Virus record (IMG/VR): IMGVR_UViG_3300033388_001272
Coordinates: 1 to 23,929 of that record
Origin: a virus
Direction: 5' to 3' (one strand)
Length of the DNA: 23,929 bases
Part shown: one piece after another, positions 7,208 to 19,458 of the stretch
Position numbering within the stretch: the first letter of the stretch is position 1
How the letters are laid out: each line of letters begins with the position of its first letter
The notes under the pieces: generated by a model
Told to the model about the DNA's origin: nothing
Database searches by the model: none
What the model saw: only the letters and a program-made list of their open reading frames with translations
Position numbers and translations under genes: made by a program

Positions 7208-9069
7208 TGCACCGGAGCCCTAGAAGTATCAACAACCACCTTCTGTATCTGGGCCATGTTCTCCATTGTCTCTGACTTTTTCTTGTCTGTATCGGCTACT
7301 TTGTTTTCTATATCGACTACTTTTGCTTGCTTCTCGATTTCTATAAGTTCAGCCGCTTGATCTTGTGCCTGTTTCGCGGCTTCCTCTCCGCCTTTTTTCT
7401 TGCCAAGCATCCTGTCTTTGTTTCGAATGCTTGAGGCCTCGATAATCATCTCAAAAGCTTCAATTTTGTACTGCTCTGGTACTGATGGGTAAAGTCGGGC
7501 AAGCTCTGCGAACTGTTCTTGCTGCAAACTAACAACGTCTGGCACATCCTCAATGATAATATCAACGTCAAGCTCTGCAACATTATTGGCAACTGTGAAA
7601 ACTGCGTTAGGATCTTGATAGTTTACGCCTTTCTCTTGCATCATGCCAATAAAGTCTGAAGTGGCCTGTTCTTGTTGTGCCGGATCCACGTTTTGAATTC
7701 TCTGTTGGTGCTGTGCCCACATATCACCGACAGTCACAGGAGCGTTTAGGCCAACCCATTCAAGGTTATTTTCATCGTCTGTTACACGGATCCATTTTTC
7801 TTCGCCCCAAAATTGCTTAATACGATTCCATATTGATCGGTAAACTCTGTGGTCGAATTGGCTTAACATGTCGAACAATGGCCCAAGCTCAACTTGACCA
7901 GCTTGGCCGCGTGCCTCTAACGCTCTACCAGATTGCGCCTTTTCTTCTTTGCCAGTAAGTGAAGCATTTGCACCAACATCGTCAATCTCTCTTTTTGCCT
8001 CTTGCATCATACTGAACTGTGCTGCCGCCATATCATTCGTGTCGAGAATCTTCCAATCGAACCCCTTCATATACTCAACGTGGCCATCTGCTTTGGATAG
8101 TTCACGCTTCATTTTCTGTATATCTTTGACAGCGCCTTTTTCTCCTGCTGTCTGCCTTAATGACATAAAGTGCAAACCTTTAGACCGGCGCTTGTTAACT
8201 TCGTCTTGTGGATCGATAAGAGTTCTTACAAATCCATATCGATTTCCTTCACGGTCAACTTTTGCGCTTTGGAAAATTAACGGGCACTCTGGAATGCCAT
8301 CTTCATCAAGGTAAAATGATTTTTTTGCCGCCTCAAGTATGCCGCCTTTTGTAAAAACACACCTGTACCACATGCCTTTATGCTTGTAGTACATCTCAAT
8401 TATTCTGACCCGCTTTCTATCATTGTCGCCCCATGAAATACGTGGCGTATCCTCATAGGTTTCATCAAGATCACCAGGCACCAGGGATGCGTCAAGGGCT
8501 TGTTCTTTATCTTCACCTGGCCATTTTTCTTTTGCGTCATCAAGGTCCATCCATGTGACAGTGCCAAGATAATTTGCATCACTAAAGTCTTTACGCCTTG
8601 AGTGTGGATCATAAAATAAACGGTCCCACATGATGTTATTCAAGACAATAACCATTTCGCCCTTGGCATTCTTCTTAACTATTACTTCAGCGCCGCACGT
8701 TCCCTCAATGGTAAGATTAGCAAAAGACTCGGACCGCTTACCGTCCCACATTTCTGCATCTGTTACATATCTCAATGCATCAGTGGCAGCATTTGCAGCA
8801 TCTTCGTGAATTGGTGTTCTCGGAAAGGCTTTCGGCCCTCTTCGCCTCATTTGCTCAAGGCCAATAAGAAAATCAATCTTAGGCTGGACTCGGTTTATGG
8901 TGATAGCCGCCTGGCCACGTTTGGCAAGGTCTGACCTTTCTTTTTCTGTCCACTGCTTATGGTCGTAGTAATCACGGTCACGCTCTGACAGCTTACGAGC
9001 ATTTAACGTCATCTCTGCCGATGACTCATACCACTGTATTTTAGTTTCGAGACTTACGCCGTTTTCCAT
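7204..9069 (-). CDS. Portal protein (P22-like)
   Basis: A 621-aa protein starting MENGVSLETKIQWYESSAEM. The N-terminal RKLSERDRDYYDHKQWTEKE segment and 'RGQAAITINRVQPKIDFLIGLE' are hallmarks of P22-type portals. The C-terminal region is Ala/Gln/Glu-rich and helical, matching the crown/barrel. Length is somewhat below P22 gp1 (725 aa), with a shorter C-terminal barrel. It forms the dodecameric DNA gate at one capsid vertex and binds terminase. The gene overlaps the large terminase by 16 bases, and its own TGA overlaps the ATG of a small membrane peptide. Confidence 0.92.
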   Translation of the reverse strand: MENGVSLETKIQWYESSAEMTLNARKLSERDRDYYDHKQWTEKERSDLAKRGQAAITINRVQPKIDFLIGLEQMRRRGPKAFPRTPIHEDAANAATDALRYVTDAEMWDGKRSESFANLTIEGTCGAEVIVKKNAKGEMVIVLNNIMWDRLFYDPHSRRKDFSDANYLGTVTWMDLDDAKEKWPGEDKEQALDASLVPGDLDETYEDTPRISWGDNDRKRVRIIEMYYKHKGMWYRCVFTKGGILEAAKKSFYLDEDGIPECPLIFQSAKVDREGNRYGFVRTLIDPQDEVNKRRSKGLHFMSLRQTAGEKGAVKDIQKMKRELSKADGHVEYMKGFDWKILDTNDMAAAQFSMMQEAKREIDDVGANASLTGKEEKAQSGRALEARGQAGQVELGPLFDMLSQFDHRVYRSIWNRIKQFWGEEKWIRVTDDENNLEWVGLNAPVTVGDMWAQHQQRIQNVDPAQQEQATSDFIGMMQEKGVNYQDPNAVFTVANNVAELDVDIIIEDVPDVVSLQQEQFAELARLYPSVPEQYKIEAFEMIIEASSIRNKDRMLGKKKGGEEAAKQAQDQAAELIEIEKQAKVVDIENKVADTDKKKSETMENMAQIQKVVVDTSRAPVQ

Positions 9070-10520
9070 GATGTGTCATTCCCCGACTCTTCTTTGTCGA
9101 ATGCTTTGTCCCAACGGTCTTCTTTGTCTTTTCGCTTCTCTGATAAAGGCCTTGTGTATGGTCGGCTCATGGCGGCATACCTTGTTTCGTCTGCCGCGTG
9201 GTCTTCCATGCTTGTGTTTAAATCCTCTGGCCTGTTTTCGTCGTGCTGAAGTGCTGGTATAGTTCTAATCGAATCTCTGCAAGTTTCAAAGAAATAAATC
9301 ATAGGGCGTTGATCTTCGCCCTTCATTCTGTCGCTTACCTGATCCCAACCTGGAACCCTTGAATTATCAGCTTGAAAGAATGTGAGTTCTTCCTCTTCGT
9401 CAAGCATCTTTTCTGCAATGCTTGGCCCATCGTGGTTGGCAAATATAGCAGGGTCAGCAACATGATAGTCAATTTCCTCTCCTGGCTGTTGTCTGTCAAT
9501 AATTCCTTTCGCAACCTGCCTCGATGTAAGCTTGCAGCCTGTGTCTGCCTTTGCACCTTCTTTTTGCCCGTACCATTCGCGGTAACGAATAAGAGCGCCT
9601 TTTGGATATTGTCGGCCATCTGGTAATATATCGCCCTCTGAAACAGTCCACCAACCAACAGAAAAAGGTTTTGCAGATCCCCAATCGAAAGAGACAAATT
9701 TAATCCATTTTTTAGGAACTTCAAAAGGCTTGATAATAAGCTTAACAGACCAACAGTCAAAGAAAGCGCCCTCGATGATATTCCAATCAGCATAACGCAT
9801 AGCCTTAACCAAGGCCTCAGAACCAAGCCCCTCAAGCCTATCTTCATACTCTGGATCATCTTCAAGCAACGATGGGTTATCGTCAAGCAGTGCCCTGATA
9901 TATTGGCGCAACATGCCGCCTTCCTTCTTGCTTGCCCTGTGTATTTCACCTTCAAGGGCCGAATCAACGAAAGTAGTTTTGACAAACAAATGGCCAATCC
10001 CGCCAGGGTTAGAGCCGCAAACAATGCGAGGGAACATGCCTTTGTATTCTTTTGGGAGTGGAGGAAGGCCGACCTTTCTAACCCTGCCTCGGAGGTATCT
10101 GTAGATTGTTTCTGTGAAGTGGGTAAGCTCATCGATAAGCAATACATGCATCTCTGAGCCTTGGTACTTGAATCTGTGCTTTTCGTCTTTACAGTGACAA
10201 AGGAATATTTTCGAACCATTCCAGAACCTAATCTCTTTGTCTGTAATTTCCGCAAGGCCAGCATCAACCCAAACCGCGAGAAGGTTTCTAAAACCTTTTG
10301 GGCCTTCGATATGGTTCTTGACAAGGTCGTCTTTAATCCTGCGAAACAGATAAACCTGAAGGCCAGCAATGGCAACACACCAAATAATTGCCGCACACCG
10401 CATAAGGTGGCTTTTACCGCCTCCTGCTGCACCGCCATACAATATCTCAGTGGCTGTCGAGAATAAGCACTTAAGTTGCTTGTCATGTAAATCAAGATTT
10501 ATCTCGGCTTGCTGTGACAT
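9054..10520 (-). CDS. Terminase large subunit
   Basis: A 488-aa packaging motor. The Walker A motif GGAAGGGKS lies at 29-37 and Walker B with catalytic acid (VLLIDE) at 126-131. The RNase-H-fold nuclease domain starts with FVSFDWG at 275-281, and a second conserved Asp follows in VADPAIF. It translocates DNA into the procapsid through the portal and cuts the concatemer. Length is typical of P22 gp2-like terminases. The start overlaps the small subunit by 29 bases and its end overlaps the portal, a continuous coupled packaging module. The Shine-Dalgarno sequence is weak, consistent with coupling. Confidence 0.95.
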   Translation of the reverse strand: MSQQAEINLDLHDKQLKCLFSTATEILYGGAAGGGKSHLMRCAAIIWCVAIAGLQVYLFRRIKDDLVKNHIEGPKGFRNLLAVWVDAGLAEITDKEIRFWNGSKIFLCHCKDEKHRFKYQGSEMHVLLIDELTHFTETIYRYLRGRVRKVGLPPLPKEYKGMFPRIVCGSNPGGIGHLFVKTTFVDSALEGEIHRASKKEGGMLRQYIRALLDDNPSLLEDDPEYEDRLEGLGSEALVKAMRYADWNIIEGAFFDCWSVKLIIKPFEVPKKWIKFVSFDWGSAKPFSVGWWTVSEGDILPDGRQYPKGALIRYREWYGQKEGAKADTGCKLTSRQVAKGIIDRQQPGEEIDYHVADPAIFANHDGPSIAEKMLDEEEELTFFQADNSRVPGWDQVSDRMKGEDQRPMIYFFETCRDSIRTIPALQHDENRPEDLNTSMEDHAADETRYAAMSRPYTRPLSEKRKDKEDRWDKAFDKEESGNDTSWKTA

Positions 10521-12399: not shown

Positions 12400-12606
12400 T
12401 CAAATCCCTGGTAATTCTGTGGCATATTCATACCTTCCGGTAGCCACGCCGGGGTAATGCTCCCAATCGTGTGGTTTATGTAGGTTTGGGTTGTACCTTC
12501 TGTAAACATCCTCACCCCATACACTTTCGCCATCACTCTCCAATGACACGGGGAACCACGCAAACCATGTATGCCAGGCGTATTTACCGCTTTGTTTTAT
12601 TTTCAT
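12400..12606 (-). CDS. Small Trp-rich conserved phage protein
   Basis: A 68-aa protein starting MKIKQSGKYAWHTWFAWFPV. The ATG (12604-12606) overlaps the TGA of the PAPS-reductase-like gene (ATGA). The 'HTWFAWFPV.L.S.G..VWGEDVYRR' pattern, with Trp-rich strands followed by a charged strand, recurs in small phage proteins of unknown function (family impression). There is no membrane segment. It is probably co-expressed with the reductase-like protein and is the last gene before a 400-bp gap. Confidence 0.75.
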   Translation of the reverse strand: MKIKQSGKYAWHTWFAWFPVSLESDGESVWGEDVYRRYNPNLHKPHDWEHYPGVATGRYEYATELPGI

Positions 12607-13334
12607 ATCCCCAATACCCCACAAAGTATCCCACATTCTGCTACTACGGGTGGAGTGCCACGCCCTCTCTTTGGGTCGAGTTCATCAAGGTATATCCGCC
12701 CTTTCTTGTCTTTCAAGCACGTAGCTCCGATTTGCCTTTCCATTTTGGCCCGTTCTTCAAACACCTTGGGGAAATCAACTCGTATCTTGTTCCAGTACGC
12801 CATACCTCCCTTCACGCAGCCTATGCAGTTGTTGTTCGTATATCCCATTTCATACATAGCTGGCCGTTTTATTCCACTGGCGGTTAAAATCTTATGTACG
12901 TCATTTTTGCTCATCCGCAAATCTACAAGTGGGAATATATGCTCCCTGGTAGGCATCTGTTCTTCAAGGCCCAAACACCTTCCGGCTTCGGTATAGTCTA
13001 TACCCCACACATAACTTAACGGCTCCTTGTCGTGTTGCCTCTCAAATTTGAGCCGTAAGTCACGTTTTAGTCGCATGGAGCAAGCCGCACCTGTTGGCCC
13101 ATTTATATACCCTTTCCCGCCAGCTCCGAGACAGGCGGAGGCAACAGTTTTGTGCTTATCCTGCAGGATCTCCACCGGTTTGCCAAACCAATCTTCACAG
13201 TCCCGGACAAATCGCATAGTGTCTCCATGTTGGTCGTCAATGTGCGTGTATATTATTCTGTCTATTTTATCGATAGCTAATTTTGTAGCCACTGCGCTAG
13301 AGCCACCAGCCGAAAACCAAGATATTGTTGTCAT
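12603..13334 (-). CDS. PAPS reductase-like protein (adenine nucleotide alpha-hydrolase fold)
   Basis: A 243-aa protein. The N-terminal WFSAGGSSAVATKLA (6-20) is a PP-loop-type nucleotide-binding motif in which the usual SGGKDS is changed to SAGGSS. It has IYTHIDDQHGDT at 28-39 and a possible metal-binding NNCIGCVKGG (CX2C) near 166-175. This matches the phage group of phosphoadenosine phosphosulphate reductase-like proteins. They may act in sulphur or nucleotide metabolism or DNA modification. The reaction is not established for phage copies. AAGGAGA precedes the ATG. The gene lies immediately left of attC site A, the 3' border of what would be its cassette. Confidence 0.85.
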   Translation of the reverse strand: MTTISWFSAGGSSAVATKLAIDKIDRIIYTHIDDQHGDTMRFVRDCEDWFGKPVEILQDKHKTVASACLGAGGKGYINGPTGAACSMRLKRDLRLKFERQHDKEPLSYVWGIDYTEAGRCLGLEEQMPTREHIFPLVDLRMSKNDVHKILTASGIKRPAMYEMGYTNNNCIGCVKGGMAYWNKIRVDFPKVFEERAKMERQIGATCLKDKKGRIYLDELDPKRGRGTPPVVAECGILCGVLGI

Positions 13335-13394: not shown

Positions 13395-13480
13395 AGTTAA
13401 CCAAGTAATAAAGTGGAAGCGAAGAGGTGCGTTTATTAAACCTGCAAGTCCTGGGCGCTCCACTTATTACAACGTTGGGT
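13395..13480 (+). repeat. attC site A
   Basis: R'' is AGTTAAC (13395-13401), one mismatch to RYYYAAC. R' is GTTGGGT (13474-13480), a perfect GTTRRRY. The stem GTAAT, unpaired A (13410), AAGTGG, unpaired A (13417), AGCG pairs with CGCT, CCACTT, ATTAC (13456-13470). The two unpaired bases are in the positions of the extrahelical bases of classical attC sites. The central loop of about 34 bases contains GTTTATTAAAC, a further small hairpin. Confidence 0.85.
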
Positions 13481-13483
13481 TTA

Positions 13484-13777
13484 CTATTCAGCATCTTTAA
13501 ACATGTCATCTTTTGCTTTTTGCAAGTACTCCATGACTACATCAATCGACTTAACATCAGTAAAAACCATTCTGGTATGTGCCAAAGTGTCCAACTTACA
13601 TTCACCATCATCAGTTTTAGCACGTTCAGCCTCCCCGCCAATTTCCATTTCACCTTGGGAAATAAAGGAGACACACCCTATTGTCTCTTTGGGTAAATCG
13701 AGAAGTCCAGCAGTAACTTCAATATCTCCGGTGCCAAACTGTATTACATTTATTCCTGTGTCATCTTTAAAAAACAT
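13484..13777 (-). CDS. Cassette gene of unknown function (97 aa)
   Basis: An acidic protein starting MFFKDDTGINVIQFGTGDIE. The N-terminal half is beta-rich and the C-terminal half helical (DVKSIDVVMEYLQKAKDDMF). AGGAG lies 7 bases before the ATG. It lies alone between attC A and attC B. The TAG stop is three bases from the GTTGGGT core of site A. A perfect TATAAT (complement of 13816-13821) lies before it, so it may have its own promoter as well as the phage one. No family is recognised, which is usual for integron cassettes. Confidence 0.8.
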   Translation of the reverse strand: MFFKDDTGINVIQFGTGDIEVTAGLLDLPKETIGCVSFISQGEMEIGGEAERAKTDDGECKLDTLAHTRMVFTDVKSIDVVMEYLQKAKDDMFKDAE

Positions 13778-13815
13778 AGTTTCACTCCTAGTTTTGGTTA
13801 TTAAAAAGCTGCACC

Positions 13816-13821
13816 ATTATA
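13816..13821 (-). promoter_or_regulatory. Possible -10 box (TATAAT) of the cassette gene at 13484-13777
   Basis: Read leftward, a perfect TATAAT lies 11 bases after the outer core box (GTTGGG) of attC B and about 40 bases before the ATG. There is no good -35 at standard spacing, so activity is uncertain. Confidence 0.35.
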
Positions 13822-13831
13822 CAAACCGTAA

Positions 13832-13917
13832 TCCCAACCAGGGTATCAAGCCGACCAGAATGGGGTTCTTTTTATCAAAGTTACTCCCAGGCTGGCGGCT
13901 TATACCAAGCGTTGGGC
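13832..13917 (+). repeat. attC site B (best preserved)
   Basis: R'' is TCCCAAC (13832-13838). R' is a perfect GTTGGGC (13911-13917). Stem: GGTAT, unpaired C (13847), AAGCCG (13848-13853), unpaired A (13854), CCAG pairs with CTGG, CGGCTT (13896-13901), ATACC. The AAGCCGA, CGGCTTA and AAGCGTTGG segments closely resemble aadA-type attC sites of mobile integrons, which also fix the plus orientation. The loop holds TGGG/CCCA and CTTT/AAAG pairs. Confidence 0.92.
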
Positions 13918-13952
13918 CGCTGGAAGATGCTCTTTCCAGGCGGCCAGTTTTA

Positions 13953-14150
13953 CTACTTTTCTTTAATGACGAGATAGCGAGTGCTATGGACACATTCGGT
14001 CGCCATGTCAGCAGGGTTGTCCAGTGAGATTTCGTGCGACTTGCTATCAGGGGTCACTACTCCATCAACCTCACTGCCCTGATCCCATACTTCAACAACT
14101 AACTTGTGGTCACTTGTGTCAGCGTTTTCAACTCTTACTTGCTTTGTCAT
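13953..14150 (-). CDS. Cassette gene of unknown function (65 aa)
   Basis: A small acidic protein starting MTKQVRVENADTSDHKLVVE. It is probably all beta, with alternating polar and hydrophobic residues (HKLVVEVWD, STRYLVIKEK). 'PDSKSHEISLDNPADMA' gives it the look of a small beta-barrel or binding protein. AAGGAG lies 7 bases before the ATG. It is the only gene between attC B and attC C. The stop is 36 bases from the core of site B. A TATAAC (complement of 14177-14182) lies upstream. No family is recognised. Confidence 0.8.
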   Translation of the reverse strand: MTKQVRVENADTSDHKLVVEVWDQGSEVDGVVTPDSKSHEISLDNPADMATECVHSTRYLVIKEK

Positions 14151-14176
14151 GTTCTTACTCCTTAATAAGGATTTAT

Positions 14177-14182
14177 GTTATA
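14177..14182 (-). promoter_or_regulatory. Possible -10 box (TATAAC) of the cassette gene at 13953-14150
   Basis: Reading leftward, TATAAC lies 12 bases after the GTTGGG core box of attC C, almost the same place as the -10-like box next to attC B. No good -35 is seen. Confidence 0.3.
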
Positions 14183-14193
14183 GGCCAAACACG

Positions 14194-14283
14194 GCCCAAC
14201 CAAGGCCTCAAGCAGATGCGAAGAGGCTATATTTATTAAAATCTGTTAGTACGGTGGCGCACTGCTTATGCCAACCGTTAGCT
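14194..14283 (+). repeat. attC site C
   Basis: R'' is a perfect GCCCAAC (14194-14200). R' is GTTAGCT (14277-14283), one mismatch to GTTRRRY. Stem: GGC, unpaired C (14209), AAGCAG (14210-14215), unpaired A (14216), TGCG pairs with CGCA, CTGCTT (14258-14267), ATGCC. The sequence differs from sites A and B at many positions, yet pairing and both bulges are kept. The TAA of the gene at 14278-14580 lies inside the core box. Confidence 0.88.
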
Positions 14284-14580
14284 TAACTCCTGTATTTGAT
14301 CTATTGCGTTCTTGTATCCACCATTTAGCAAGTTACTTATCCATATGCTTGCTGACAAAGTTGCTATATGCCGAAATCCTTTGTCTTGCAGTTTGTACTT
14401 GTTCATTTCTGCGTCAATAGTCCCATACACCGCATAGTCATCGTTTTTTTTGAAGACAAAAACAAATTCATCTTGCTCCTTATTCGGTGGCAGGCCAAAG
14501 CTAACAAGCTCATGCACAGCCGACACTTCGAGGCTTGGCGTTTGGGCTTTATTTTCTTGTTTATGTTCTACGCTTTTCAT
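14278..14580 (-). CDS. Unknown small protein next to attC C (100 aa)
   Basis: Starts MKSVEHKQENKAQTPSLEVS, with GAGGA 6 bases before the ATG. After a polar N-terminus come 'FVFVFKKNDDYAVYGTIDAE' strands and a C-terminal helix ending 'IDQIQELS'. The TAA lies within the GTTAGCT core box of attC C. The gene therefore butts directly against the recombination site. It may be a further cassette gene whose distal attC is lost or degenerate, or a phage gene at the insertion point. No family is recognised. Confidence 0.78.
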   Translation of the reverse strand: MKSVEHKQENKAQTPSLEVSAVHELVSFGLPPNKEQDEFVFVFKKNDDYAVYGTIDAEMNKYKLQDKGFRHIATLSASIWISNLLNGGYKNAIDQIQELS

Positions 14581-14618
14581 ATTCGTTCCTCATTACTATG
14601 TGCGGGTGATTCAGGACG

Positions 14619-14930
14619 TTAGCTTGCCTTTTTTGAAAATTTACTTACGCATTCCCTATGCTCTTTGTTTCCTTTAAAGCTTACAGTCTTAAACCCACAT
14701 CCTTGAACACAATAGAAGTTTCCGTAGATAGCATATCCACTGGTATGGACCTTATCTTTCATAACACCCCCACAATCTGGGCAGCTAACAAGCAAATTAG
14801 TTGGAACACTTAAGGCTGTACTTGCGCCACCATTGTTGTGGTCTGGTATGTTTTGGGTTTTTATGCATTCCGTACATACTGCATAGTTTGTGTCTTCGCT
14901 AATTTTTTTGTGACAGAAAAGGCAGTACAT
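14619..14930 (-). CDS. Zinc-ribbon protein (103 aa)
   Basis: Starts MYCLFCHKKISEDTNYAVCT. Four CX2C-type knuckles are visible: CLFC (3-6), CTEC (19-22), CPDC (about 50-53) and CVQGC (about 74-78), enough for two zinc-binding sites. The basic tail is FKGNKEHRECVSKFSKKAS. Such small proteins usually bind nucleic acid or protein partners (inference). The TAA is inside AGCTAAC, the same junction sequence as the gene at 14278-14580. Confidence 0.75.
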   Translation of the reverse strand: MYCLFCHKKISEDTNYAVCTECIKTQNIPDHNNGGASTALSVPTNLLVSCPDCGGVMKDKVHTSGYAIYGNFYCVQGCGFKTVSFKGNKEHRECVSKFSKKAS

Positions 14931-14987
14931 AGTCTGTTCTCCTTGGTAGTTGGTGTCAGCTGATTCAGGTTAGTATTCACACTATCG

Positions 14988-15116
14988 CTAATCACCGCAC
15001 AACTTAAAACCACAACGCCAGCAAACAATATGGCTGACTTTTAAGCATACACGCCTTCCACAACAAGGGCACTTACCGCCACGACATTTAGTTGATTTGT
15101 ACATTTCTTTTTTCAT
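14988..15116 (-). CDS. Cys-rich zinc-ribbon peptide (42 aa)
   Basis: The ATG (15114-15116) overlaps the TGA of the ASCH gene (ATGA). The product starts MKKEMYKSTKCRGGKCPCCG and contains two Cys pairs, CPCC and CWRCGFKLC, spaced like a single zinc ribbon. It is strongly basic, so nucleic-acid binding is plausible. A 57-base gap follows before the next gene. This gene is short enough to be missed by usual cut-offs. Confidence 0.7.
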   Translation of the reverse strand: MKKEMYKSTKCRGGKCPCCGRRVCLKVSHIVCWRCGFKLCGD

Positions 15117-15466
15117 ACTTTTATCCATGATTGCGCCCCCTGTTTATGATCGTATTTAATGGGATGGCTGAACCTTATGACATCTTTTAAGACAAGCGGG
15201 AATCTCCACTTTTTATATGTGTCCCATTTTCCATCATATGGAACTTGATGCTTGTCAAAATTTATAATTAGCTGGTCAAAGGATTTTCTGGTTAAGCAAT
15301 CGTGGATCGTTGCTGACCCCACAACTAAGCCGGTTCCTTGCTTTATGAGCCCGATTCTGCCACGGATTTTTATATATCTGTAATGCATTTCCCATGTCTT
15401 TTGGCCAGAGAGGATAAGTTCTATCCATGGTTCTCTGATGATTAGGGCCGTGTCGAAATCTTTCAT
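15113..15466 (-). CDS. ASCH-domain protein
   Basis: A 117-aa protein. 'ALIIREPWIELILSGQKTWE' (7-26), followed by 'IRGRIGLIKQGTGLVVGSAT' and a HDCL strand, is the ASCH (PUA-like beta-barrel) pattern. The usual 'KP.a..I..G.KT.E.R' is present with M in place of R after WE. ASCH proteins bind RNA or modified nucleosides. Some are nucleases or amidohydrolases acting on N4-acetylcytidine. The ATG overlaps the DUF2786 gene stop (ATGA), so it is coupled. Its role here is probably RNA or nucleotide related (inference). Confidence 0.82.
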   Translation of the reverse strand: MKDFDTALIIREPWIELILSGQKTWEMHYRYIKIRGRIGLIKQGTGLVVGSATIHDCLTRKSFDQLIINFDKHQVPYDGKWDTYKKWRFPLVLKDVIRFSHPIKYDHKQGAQSWIKV

Positions 15467-15993
15467 TCCCCAATTTCCCTCCTGATATTTATGCCTGGCA
15501 TAACGTCACTCATTGCAAGCATTCTTTTAACCTTGGCCCTTTCTTCGGCGCTCAACTCCGGCCTATTATCACCATTGCTATCTTCTTGCGGTGGAAATAT
15601 GTCGTGCTTATGTACGAAAGCCTGGTAAGCAATATCGATTTGTTCAGATAAACCTTTCTTAAAAGTAGTAAACTTCAATTCAACTTCAATATATTCTGCG
15701 TCTGTTATCTCCGCGCCTAGAGTTGCCTTTCTGTTTGGCGTAGTATAAATGCTTATTTCATTCCCACAAACGTGATTAAAAATTTGGCACAGCAACCTCC
15801 TGTTAATCTTACCATTACCCCACTTTAACCATCGCATTGTTTTCACATCGCCCGTCAATTGGTCTATGGTAATCCCATGTTTATCCATCAACCTCCCAAG
15901 CATTTCTTTCGCAACTTCTTTTTCACCACCAACTCCTCGCTCGGCAAGAGCCAGCAACTTAGCCAGTTTTCTTTCTAACTTTTCGTGCATCAT
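15463..15993 (-). CDS. DUF2786-domain protein
   Basis: A 176-aa protein. The N-terminal 'LERKLAKLLALAERGVGGEK' and 'AKEMLGRLMDKHGI' are the DUF2786 signature of two helices with the 'KI.KLLALA...' motif. A longer C-terminal region follows with a polar segment and a helix (SAEERAKVKRMLAMSD). DUF2786 occurs in phage and bacterial proteins of unknown function, some near DNA metabolism genes. The first ATG (15991-15993) overlaps the TGA of the RHH regulator (ATGA). A second ATG follows at once. Confidence 0.8.
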   Translation of the reverse strand: MMHEKLERKLAKLLALAERGVGGEKEVAKEMLGRLMDKHGITIDQLTGDVKTMRWLKWGNGKINRRLLCQIFNHVCGNEISIYTTPNRKATLGAEITDAEYIEVELKFTTFKKGLSEQIDIAYQAFVHKHDIFPPQEDSNGDNRPELSAEERAKVKRMLAMSDVMPGINIRREIGE

Positions 15994-18799: not shown

Positions 18800-18834
18800 T
18801 TTATTTTTACTTATTGGTATCATTAAACTTCAAT

Positions 18835-18886
18835 AAGCGGATAGGGTTGCTCCGAAAAGCCTGATTCATCACCAGGCCTTCCGCTT
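18835..18886 (+). other. Two-part stem-loop upstream of the HNH gene
   Basis: AAGCGG (18835-18840) pairs with CCGCTT (18881-18886), and GCCTG (18859-18863) pairs with CAGGC (18873-18877). It lies between the ATPase stop and the HNH start and is followed by only four T, so it is a weak terminator at best. It may instead be a regulatory hairpin controlling the HNH gene. It resembles attC inner stems but lacks a GTTRRRY box. Confidence 0.45.
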
Positions 18887-18924
18887 TTCATTTCTGTGAT
18901 GACAACCTTTTGATGGGAGGTTTC

Positions 18925-19458
18925 ATGGGACGACCCAGAACACACAATAAAATTTCAGGAAAATTCGGCAGGCTTTTGATTTTAAAAGAAACAGCCGGAA
19001 CAAGTTACTCTAGAAGATTCTCCTGTCTTTGTGAATGCGGAACAAAAAAGACAGTAAACCTTAACGCCTTACTAAGCGGCAACACAAAGAGTTGTGGTTG
19101 CTTGAAAAGCAAAATGGTTACAGAAAGCAATACCACTCACGGCCTTTCAAAAAGCAAGCTTTATAGGGTTTGGTGCAGTATGCGCCAGCGGTGTACAAAT
19201 AAAAACGATAAAGCTTTTGCCAACTATGGTGGTCGGGGGATATCAGTTTGTGGCGAATGGTCTAATTATTCGCTATTTTACTCATGGGCCTTTGCGAGTG
19301 GGTATGCGGAAGGATTAACCATTGAGCGTGTCGATAACGATGGCATTTATAGCCCTGGAAACTGCTCATGGTTGCCAAGATCCGAACAACCAAAAAACCG
19401 CAGACCTTTCAAGTGTACTGAAAAATGTACCAAAACAGGCAGATTTATTAAAGTTTAA
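18925..19458 (+). CDS. Free-standing HNH/AP2-type homing-endonuclease-like protein
   Basis: A 177-aa protein. Residues 1-60 start MGRPRTHNKISGKFGRLLIL and contain two CX1-2C pairs (CLCECG, CGCL) in a DNA-binding zinc-like module. The C-terminal part 'LYRVWCSMRQRCTNKNDKAF', 'NYGGRGISVCGEW', 'TIERVDNDGIYSPGNCSW' and 'PKNRR' matches the phage HNH/AP2-type homing-endonuclease-like family. GGGAGG lies four bases before the chosen ATG. An in-frame ATG at 18913 lies before this site. It sits as an extra gene between the ATPase and RecT, typical of a free-standing mobile endonuclease. Confidence 0.8.
   Translation: MGRPRTHNKISGKFGRLLILKETAGTSYSRRFSCLCECGTKKTVNLNALLSGNTKSCGCLKSKMVTESNTTHGLSKSKLYRVWCSMRQRCTNKNDKAFANYGGRGISVCGEWSNYSLFYSWAFASGYAEGLTIERVDNDGIYSPGNCSWLPRSEQPKNRRPFKCTEKCTKTGRFIKV

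Follow-up and report, generated by a model that had tools for sequence, protein, structure and literature searches.

Integron cassette sites inside a phage genome raise the question of whose cassettes they are. The locus examined here lies in IMGVR_UViG_3300033388_001272, a linear viral record of 23,929 bases, all of which was analysed (the window). It encodes a terminase large subunit, a portal, a major head protein and other phage proteins, and we treat the contig as a phage because the terminase large subunit gene (9054-10520) is present. A sequence-only reading of the window had described three attC sites and proposed that the phage gained one-gene cassettes through a host integron. The features of the locus are as follows.

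9054 to 10520, minus strand: terminase large subunit (TerL) gene; phrog_979, E 1.2e-27; 294 IMG/VR relatives
12603 to 13334, minus strand: left flanking gene, phage PAPS reductase-like; phrog_424, E 2e-41; co-directional with the cassette genes
13395 to 13480, plus strand: attC site A, 86 nt; R'' AGTTAAC, R' GTTGGGT; left-most site of the array
13475 to 13911: cassette 1, 437 bp, from the crossover point of site A (between G and TT) to that of site B
13484 to 13777, minus strand: gene of cassette 1, 97 aa; AGGAG ribosome-binding site; antisense to attC
13832 to 13917, plus strand: attC site B, 86 nt; R'' TCCCAAC, R' GTTGGGC; aadA-like L box AAGCCG-A
13912 to 14277: cassette 2, 366 bp, from the crossover point of site B to that of site C
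13953 to 14150, minus strand: gene of cassette 2, 65 aa; antisense to attC
14194 to 14283, plus strand: attC site C, 90 nt; R'' GCCCAAC, R' GTTAGCT
14278 to 14618: cassette 3, 341 bp, from the crossover point of site C to that of site D
14278 to 14580, minus strand: gene of cassette 3, 100 aa; antisense to attC; its TAA stop codon is in the R' box of site C
14499 to 14624, plus strand: candidate attC site D; R'' AGCTAAC, R' GTTAGCT; overlooked by the sequence-only reading
14619 to 14930, minus strand: possible fourth reversed cassette gene, 103 aa, zinc-ribbon-like; its TAA stop codon is in the R' box of site D

Sites A, B and C lie where they had been placed, with the lengths, stem arms and unpaired bases that had been described. 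The RYYYAAC/GTTRRRY core boxes are also present in all three, except that the R'' boxes of A and B have one mismatch each to RYYYAAC. To score the sites we used a covariance model (R1) trained on 18 attC sites picked by structure next to bacterial integron integrases in a gammaproteobacterial sample. As anticipated by the sequence-only reading, R1 gave significant scores for B (49.1 bits, E 1.1e-9), C (35.5 bits, E 1.6e-6) and A (19.5 bits, E 0.008 with filters off), the last of these weak. Site D scored 20.3 bits (E 0.005), which is also weak; the fifth-ranked match in the window reached 7.5 bits. R1 found 94 matches across 547 kb of integron loci, used as the positive control, and none at E<=5 in 1.04 Mb of TerL-related phage loci, used as the negative control. 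It found three sites in Tetrasphaera phage TJE1, the published number. Since R1 returned nothing for P12002L, and nothing in the 100 of 132 kb of H101 that were searched, its sensitivity is limited outside its gammaproteobacterial training type.

A structural scan for R''/R' boxes, a 6+4 bp stem and one bulged base found A, B and C only, all on the plus strand, while the same scan of 200 dinucleotide shuffles of the window gave 5 matches in total (about 0.025 per window). When the bottom strand was folded as single-stranded DNA, the attC hairpin was the minimum-energy fold for A (z -2.8) and B (z -6.0), and was not for C (z about 0) or D (z +1.1). A comparison of free energies between the strands did not tell the polarity of the sites. 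The covariance model did, and clearly so for B, which scored just 7.5 bits on the minus strand. In site D, R'' and R' are fully complementary, the L'' arm has a 2-nt insertion, and the loop contains the ribosome-binding site and start codon of the cassette 3 gene. Because C and D fold poorly and A and D score weakly, part of the array may be decayed. To the right of the possible fourth cassette gene, R1 recognised no attC. A stretch beside that gene, at about 14781-14978, has AGCTAACAAGC and TGATTCAGG..GTTAG in common with site D and may be a decayed attC; it received no R1 score and is therefore not claimed as a fifth site.

Within 1.23 kb there are thus four attC matches, all on the plus strand and scoring between 49.1 and 19.5 bits (with R1, not the model of IntegronFinder), and they show R''/R' boxes, a GTT crossover, paired L boxes and extrahelical bases on one strand. 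No match to the integron integrase family TIGR02249 was found in the whole 23.9-kb record, so this is not a complete integron with intI, attI and Pc. The contig may be incomplete, and the absence of an integrase holds for the record as assembled. These findings support the view that the region is an integrase-less attC cluster (CALIN) within a phage genome. Such clusters are already known from the virulent phages TJE1, PH101 and P12002L (Qi et al. 2023, PMC9892861); they likewise combine an attC array with small genes and no integrase, and IntI1 recombined five of the six phage attC sites assayed (PMC9892861). As phage attC clusters have been published, with an integrase assay, the presence of attC in a phage is not in itself new. 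Previously, phage attC arrays came from a small set of genomes and were interpreted as ordinary integron arrays. What we consider novel, given those published clusters, is the reversed class described below.

The gene of an integron cassette typically reads the same way as the attC top strand, although this is not strictly required. In the window, each cassette holds one gene, and all three genes are antisense to attC and co-directional with the phage genes to their left. Every gene has a ribosome-binding site beside its ATG and a clearly higher coding score in the antisense direction (antisense versus sense, 30.7 and -3.0 for cassette 1, 13.7 and -6.7 for cassette 2, 23.1 and 2.7 for cassette 3). 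The genes start beside R'', stop at or in the preceding R' box, and sit in a phage context. Bacterial arrays, from class 1 and chromosomal integrons, share with the window the R''/R' boxes, L box arms, extrahelical bases and roughly one gene per attC; they differ in having genes in the opposite direction, and the window has no integrase and no identified attI or Pc.

Phage relatives are known for two of the three window cassette genes. The cassette 1 gene matches phrog_31900 (E 1.5e-10) and has distant, weak Bacillus phage relatives; the cassette 2 protein has relatives, 49-50% identical over almost the whole length, in three IMG/VR contigs that lack attC matches. In the phage collection, one of the four array proteins had these weak Bacillus phage relatives and the other three had no match. 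For the gene at 14619-14930, all Pfam matches were sub-threshold, including one to Lar restriction alleviation (E 0.049). A promoter scan found none in the leader of any cassette gene. To the right of the array, the minus strand encodes an ASCH-domain protein (15113-15466) and a DUF2786 protein (15463-15993).

We asked how common this polarity is by comparing 23 bacterial integron loci with IMG/VR contigs. The IMG/VR sample was drawn with one generic attC pattern; its counts are lower bounds and cover the matches listed. R1 found at least 234 and at least 137 attC matches in its two batches. Polarity was called by coding score and not by a gene caller, and was re-scored by amino-acid composition because longest-ORF calls are unreliable in G+C-rich contigs. 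In the bacterial loci, gene and attC run in the same direction in 84 of 87 callable cassettes, with 3 antisense. In IMG/VR, among the matches listed, 121 of 139 cassettes are antisense and 18 run in the same direction, and the batches agree (76 antisense and 11 same in the first, 45 and 7 in the second). As the cassettes of one contig are not independent, we also give the count by contig: among the matches listed, 51 antisense versus 5 same for 56 callable contigs, with duplicates removed by hand. The difference from bacteria has a Fisher p-value of about 1e-39 for cassettes and 2e-15 for contigs. Family matches support the calls: among the matches listed, 51 PHROG families were matched by antisense ORFs and 14 by same-direction ORFs.

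Since bacterial cassettes have the opposite polarity, the data do not support the proposal that the phage acquired the window's cassettes through a host integron: all three are reversed, and two of the three genes have phage relatives. To judge from these counts, reversed phage-type arrays are a class and not an accident. No earlier report of reversed phage cassettes was found in a literature search that covered sources other than subscription papers and preprints, and the reversed polarity appears to be new. In TJE1 the genes follow the attC direction as in bacteria, whereas in the window and in most IMG/VR arrays among the matches listed they oppose it; where PMC9892861 deals with orientation, it says nothing of genes that oppose their attC.

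The reversed cassettes have further features in common. Among the matches listed, the R' box provides the gene's stop codon in 65 of 121 reversed IMG/VR cassettes, the median distance of the start codon from R'' is 16 nt, and reversed phage cassettes are shorter than bacterial ones (median 436 bp versus 621 bp). Many attC-array IMG/VR contigs among the matches listed carry genes for TerL, phage RNA polymerase, DNA polymerase, primase, tape measure and RecT/RecE; reversed-array contigs (again among the matches listed) have all of these kinds and also baseplate genes. An integron integrase was present in 3 of 47 IMG/VR records among the matches listed. In four contigs (L285, L287, L265 and L288) the reversed arrays lie near single-strand annealing proteins (RecT, Bet, Sak) and RecE-type exonucleases.

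Reversed cassettes are a minority in bacteria (the 3 of 87 above), and on inspection two of those resemble toxins or antitoxins. The reversed toxin-antitoxin cassettes known from chromosomal integrons share with the window a gene that is antisense to attC. The reversed phage cassettes instead encode, among the matches listed, DNA methyltransferases, Dam, a Mom-like protein, Lar, RNA ligase and Gp157. In an alignment of the reversed cassette ORFs of IMG/VR contigs (A2), DNA methyltransferases were abundant and Dam, Mom-like and Lar proteins also occurred, and this richness suggests a counter-restriction cargo.

It should also be noted that canonical same-direction phage arrays do exist, namely TJE1 and 5 of the 56 callable IMG/VR contigs (among the matches listed, L223, L248, L249, L255 and L326). 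L223 carries an IntI. Because their IMG identifiers are of the isolate-genome kind, L223, L248 and L249 may each be a prophage together with a host integron.

Among the matches listed, 30 of 89 testable ends of inter-contig homology blocks lie within 12 bp of an attC crossover, where 2.5 were expected (mean of 500 random placements; maximum 7). Single cassettes recur in different phage contigs at 92-99.7% identity and are bounded by attC crossover points, as in L239/L273 (99.7%), L218/L273/L330 (98-99%) and L231/L261 (92.6%). The contigs L296 and L325 are 98% identical over 5.9 kb and share their flank as far as the first attC; beyond it their contents diverge, with four attC sites in one and one in the other. 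Comparing L296 10410-11276 with L325 8076-8131, the difference consists of three reversed cassettes of about 260-280 bp each. The comparisons support movement of cassettes between phage contigs for other reversed arrays. The earlier suggestion that the array could let the phage exchange small genes with host arrays therefore holds in part: exchange is indicated among other reversed arrays, between phage contigs, and none was seen with host arrays, conceivable though it is.

Could the window's array nonetheless be a relic, left by a single uptake of ordinary bacterial cassettes from a host integron, and its reversed gene direction an accident? In favour of this, a model of bacterial attC recognises the sites, the scores of A and D are weak, and reversed cassettes do occur in bacteria at a low rate. 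At that rate, however, three reversed cassettes out of three have a probability of about 4e-5; moreover, reversed polarity dominates in many unrelated phage contigs and two of the genes have phage relatives, making a single capture unlikely. Alternatively, the hairpins might derive from attC, be retained for a different job, for instance as 5' UTR structures or as terminators separating phage genes, and no longer serve recombination. Every hairpin belongs to a gene's leader and either contains the start codon or lies close to it, and A and B fold stably. A plain RNA hairpin, however, would need neither R boxes nor an extrahelical base, the single-base asymmetry that marks attC polarity is retained (49.1 versus 7.5 bits for the two strands of B), and cassette-exact sharing is seen among other reversed arrays. 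We regard such a change of function as quite improbable.

The resemblance to attC might also be due to chance, or a host integron fragment might have been mis-assembled into a viral contig; in favour of this, the IMG/VR contig is linear and no close relative of it was found. This explanation is strongly disfavoured by the R1 scores and the flanking genes, and we give it hardly any credence: such sites are rare in shuffled sequence, phage genes flank the array, and gene polarity differs from that of host integrons.

The reading we favour, and consider likely, is that the window holds a CALIN of single-gene cassettes in a reversed, phage-type format, probably recombined in trans by a host IntI. 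A phage-adapted cassette pool moved in this way fits better than a host-integron origin. Under the proposed format, a gene would start beside or inside its own attC, run antisense, and end by the preceding attC, at its R' box or close to it; that box would sometimes double as the stop codon. Since the contig has no integrase, the enzyme would have to be supplied by the host. The array would probably act in trans during infection of an integron-bearing host, whose IntI, the presumed enzyme, would recombine folded attC bottom strands in an attC x attC reaction, and single genes would be lost, gained or swapped among phages. Being reversed, the genes are co-directional with the phage operon and would therefore be read by phage transcription; in an array of the host they would be oriented against transcription from Pc.

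Reversal may also bear on replication. In bacterial arrays the attC bottom strand is on the leading-strand template, and inversion of an array raises excision (PMC11023631). The attC bottom strand of a reversed cassette would be the coding strand and, if the gene is co-directional with the fork, the lagging-strand template. Reversal could thus combine the proper gene direction for expression with a more active site configuration. Tentatively, phages might keep an orientation-isolated cassette pool of their own, with co-directional genes and the recombinogenic strand on the lagging template, in which counter-defence genes are exchanged rapidly among phages by host IntI and stay silent in host integrons; we regard this fuller scenario as possible but doubtful.

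The combination of reversed polarity, an R' box that serves as stop codon and cassette-exact sharing suggests phage-adapted gene exchange that needs host integrases. If this is true, integrons would give phages a place to exchange genes, DNA methyltransferases and other anti-restriction genes among them, and cassette polarity would tell members of the bacterial pool from those of the viral one.

For the window's own array, mobility is inferred, because no close relative of this phage was found in TerL, DNA or protein comparisons. Its closest TerL relatives are at most 63% identical, and R1 found an attC match in none of its TerL relatives. GenBank phages gave no DNA-level match to the window, and its cassettes had no relative in the sampled IMG/VR arrays. 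Two sequence patterns were also searched and set aside. Pattern GCTTATRCCAANCGTTRG occurred in 14 IMG/VR stretches, which had no attC structure and several of which were evidently capsid-gene coding sequence. Pattern YCCAACNARGGNNTCAAGCNGA occurred at 41 loci in genome contigs, few of them true attC (L108, L121, L125 and L132), so the attC subtype of the window points to no single host group.

A tRNA search of the window found none, and an Rfam scan at gathering thresholds gave a single match, with none for attC. The match is an int-alpA RNA (RF02996) at 18834-18901 on the plus strand (42.5 bits), directly upstream of a 182-aa ORF (18910-19458, plus strand). This ORF has no Pfam match and has relatives of 37-39% identity in the attC-array contigs L226 and L241/L289.
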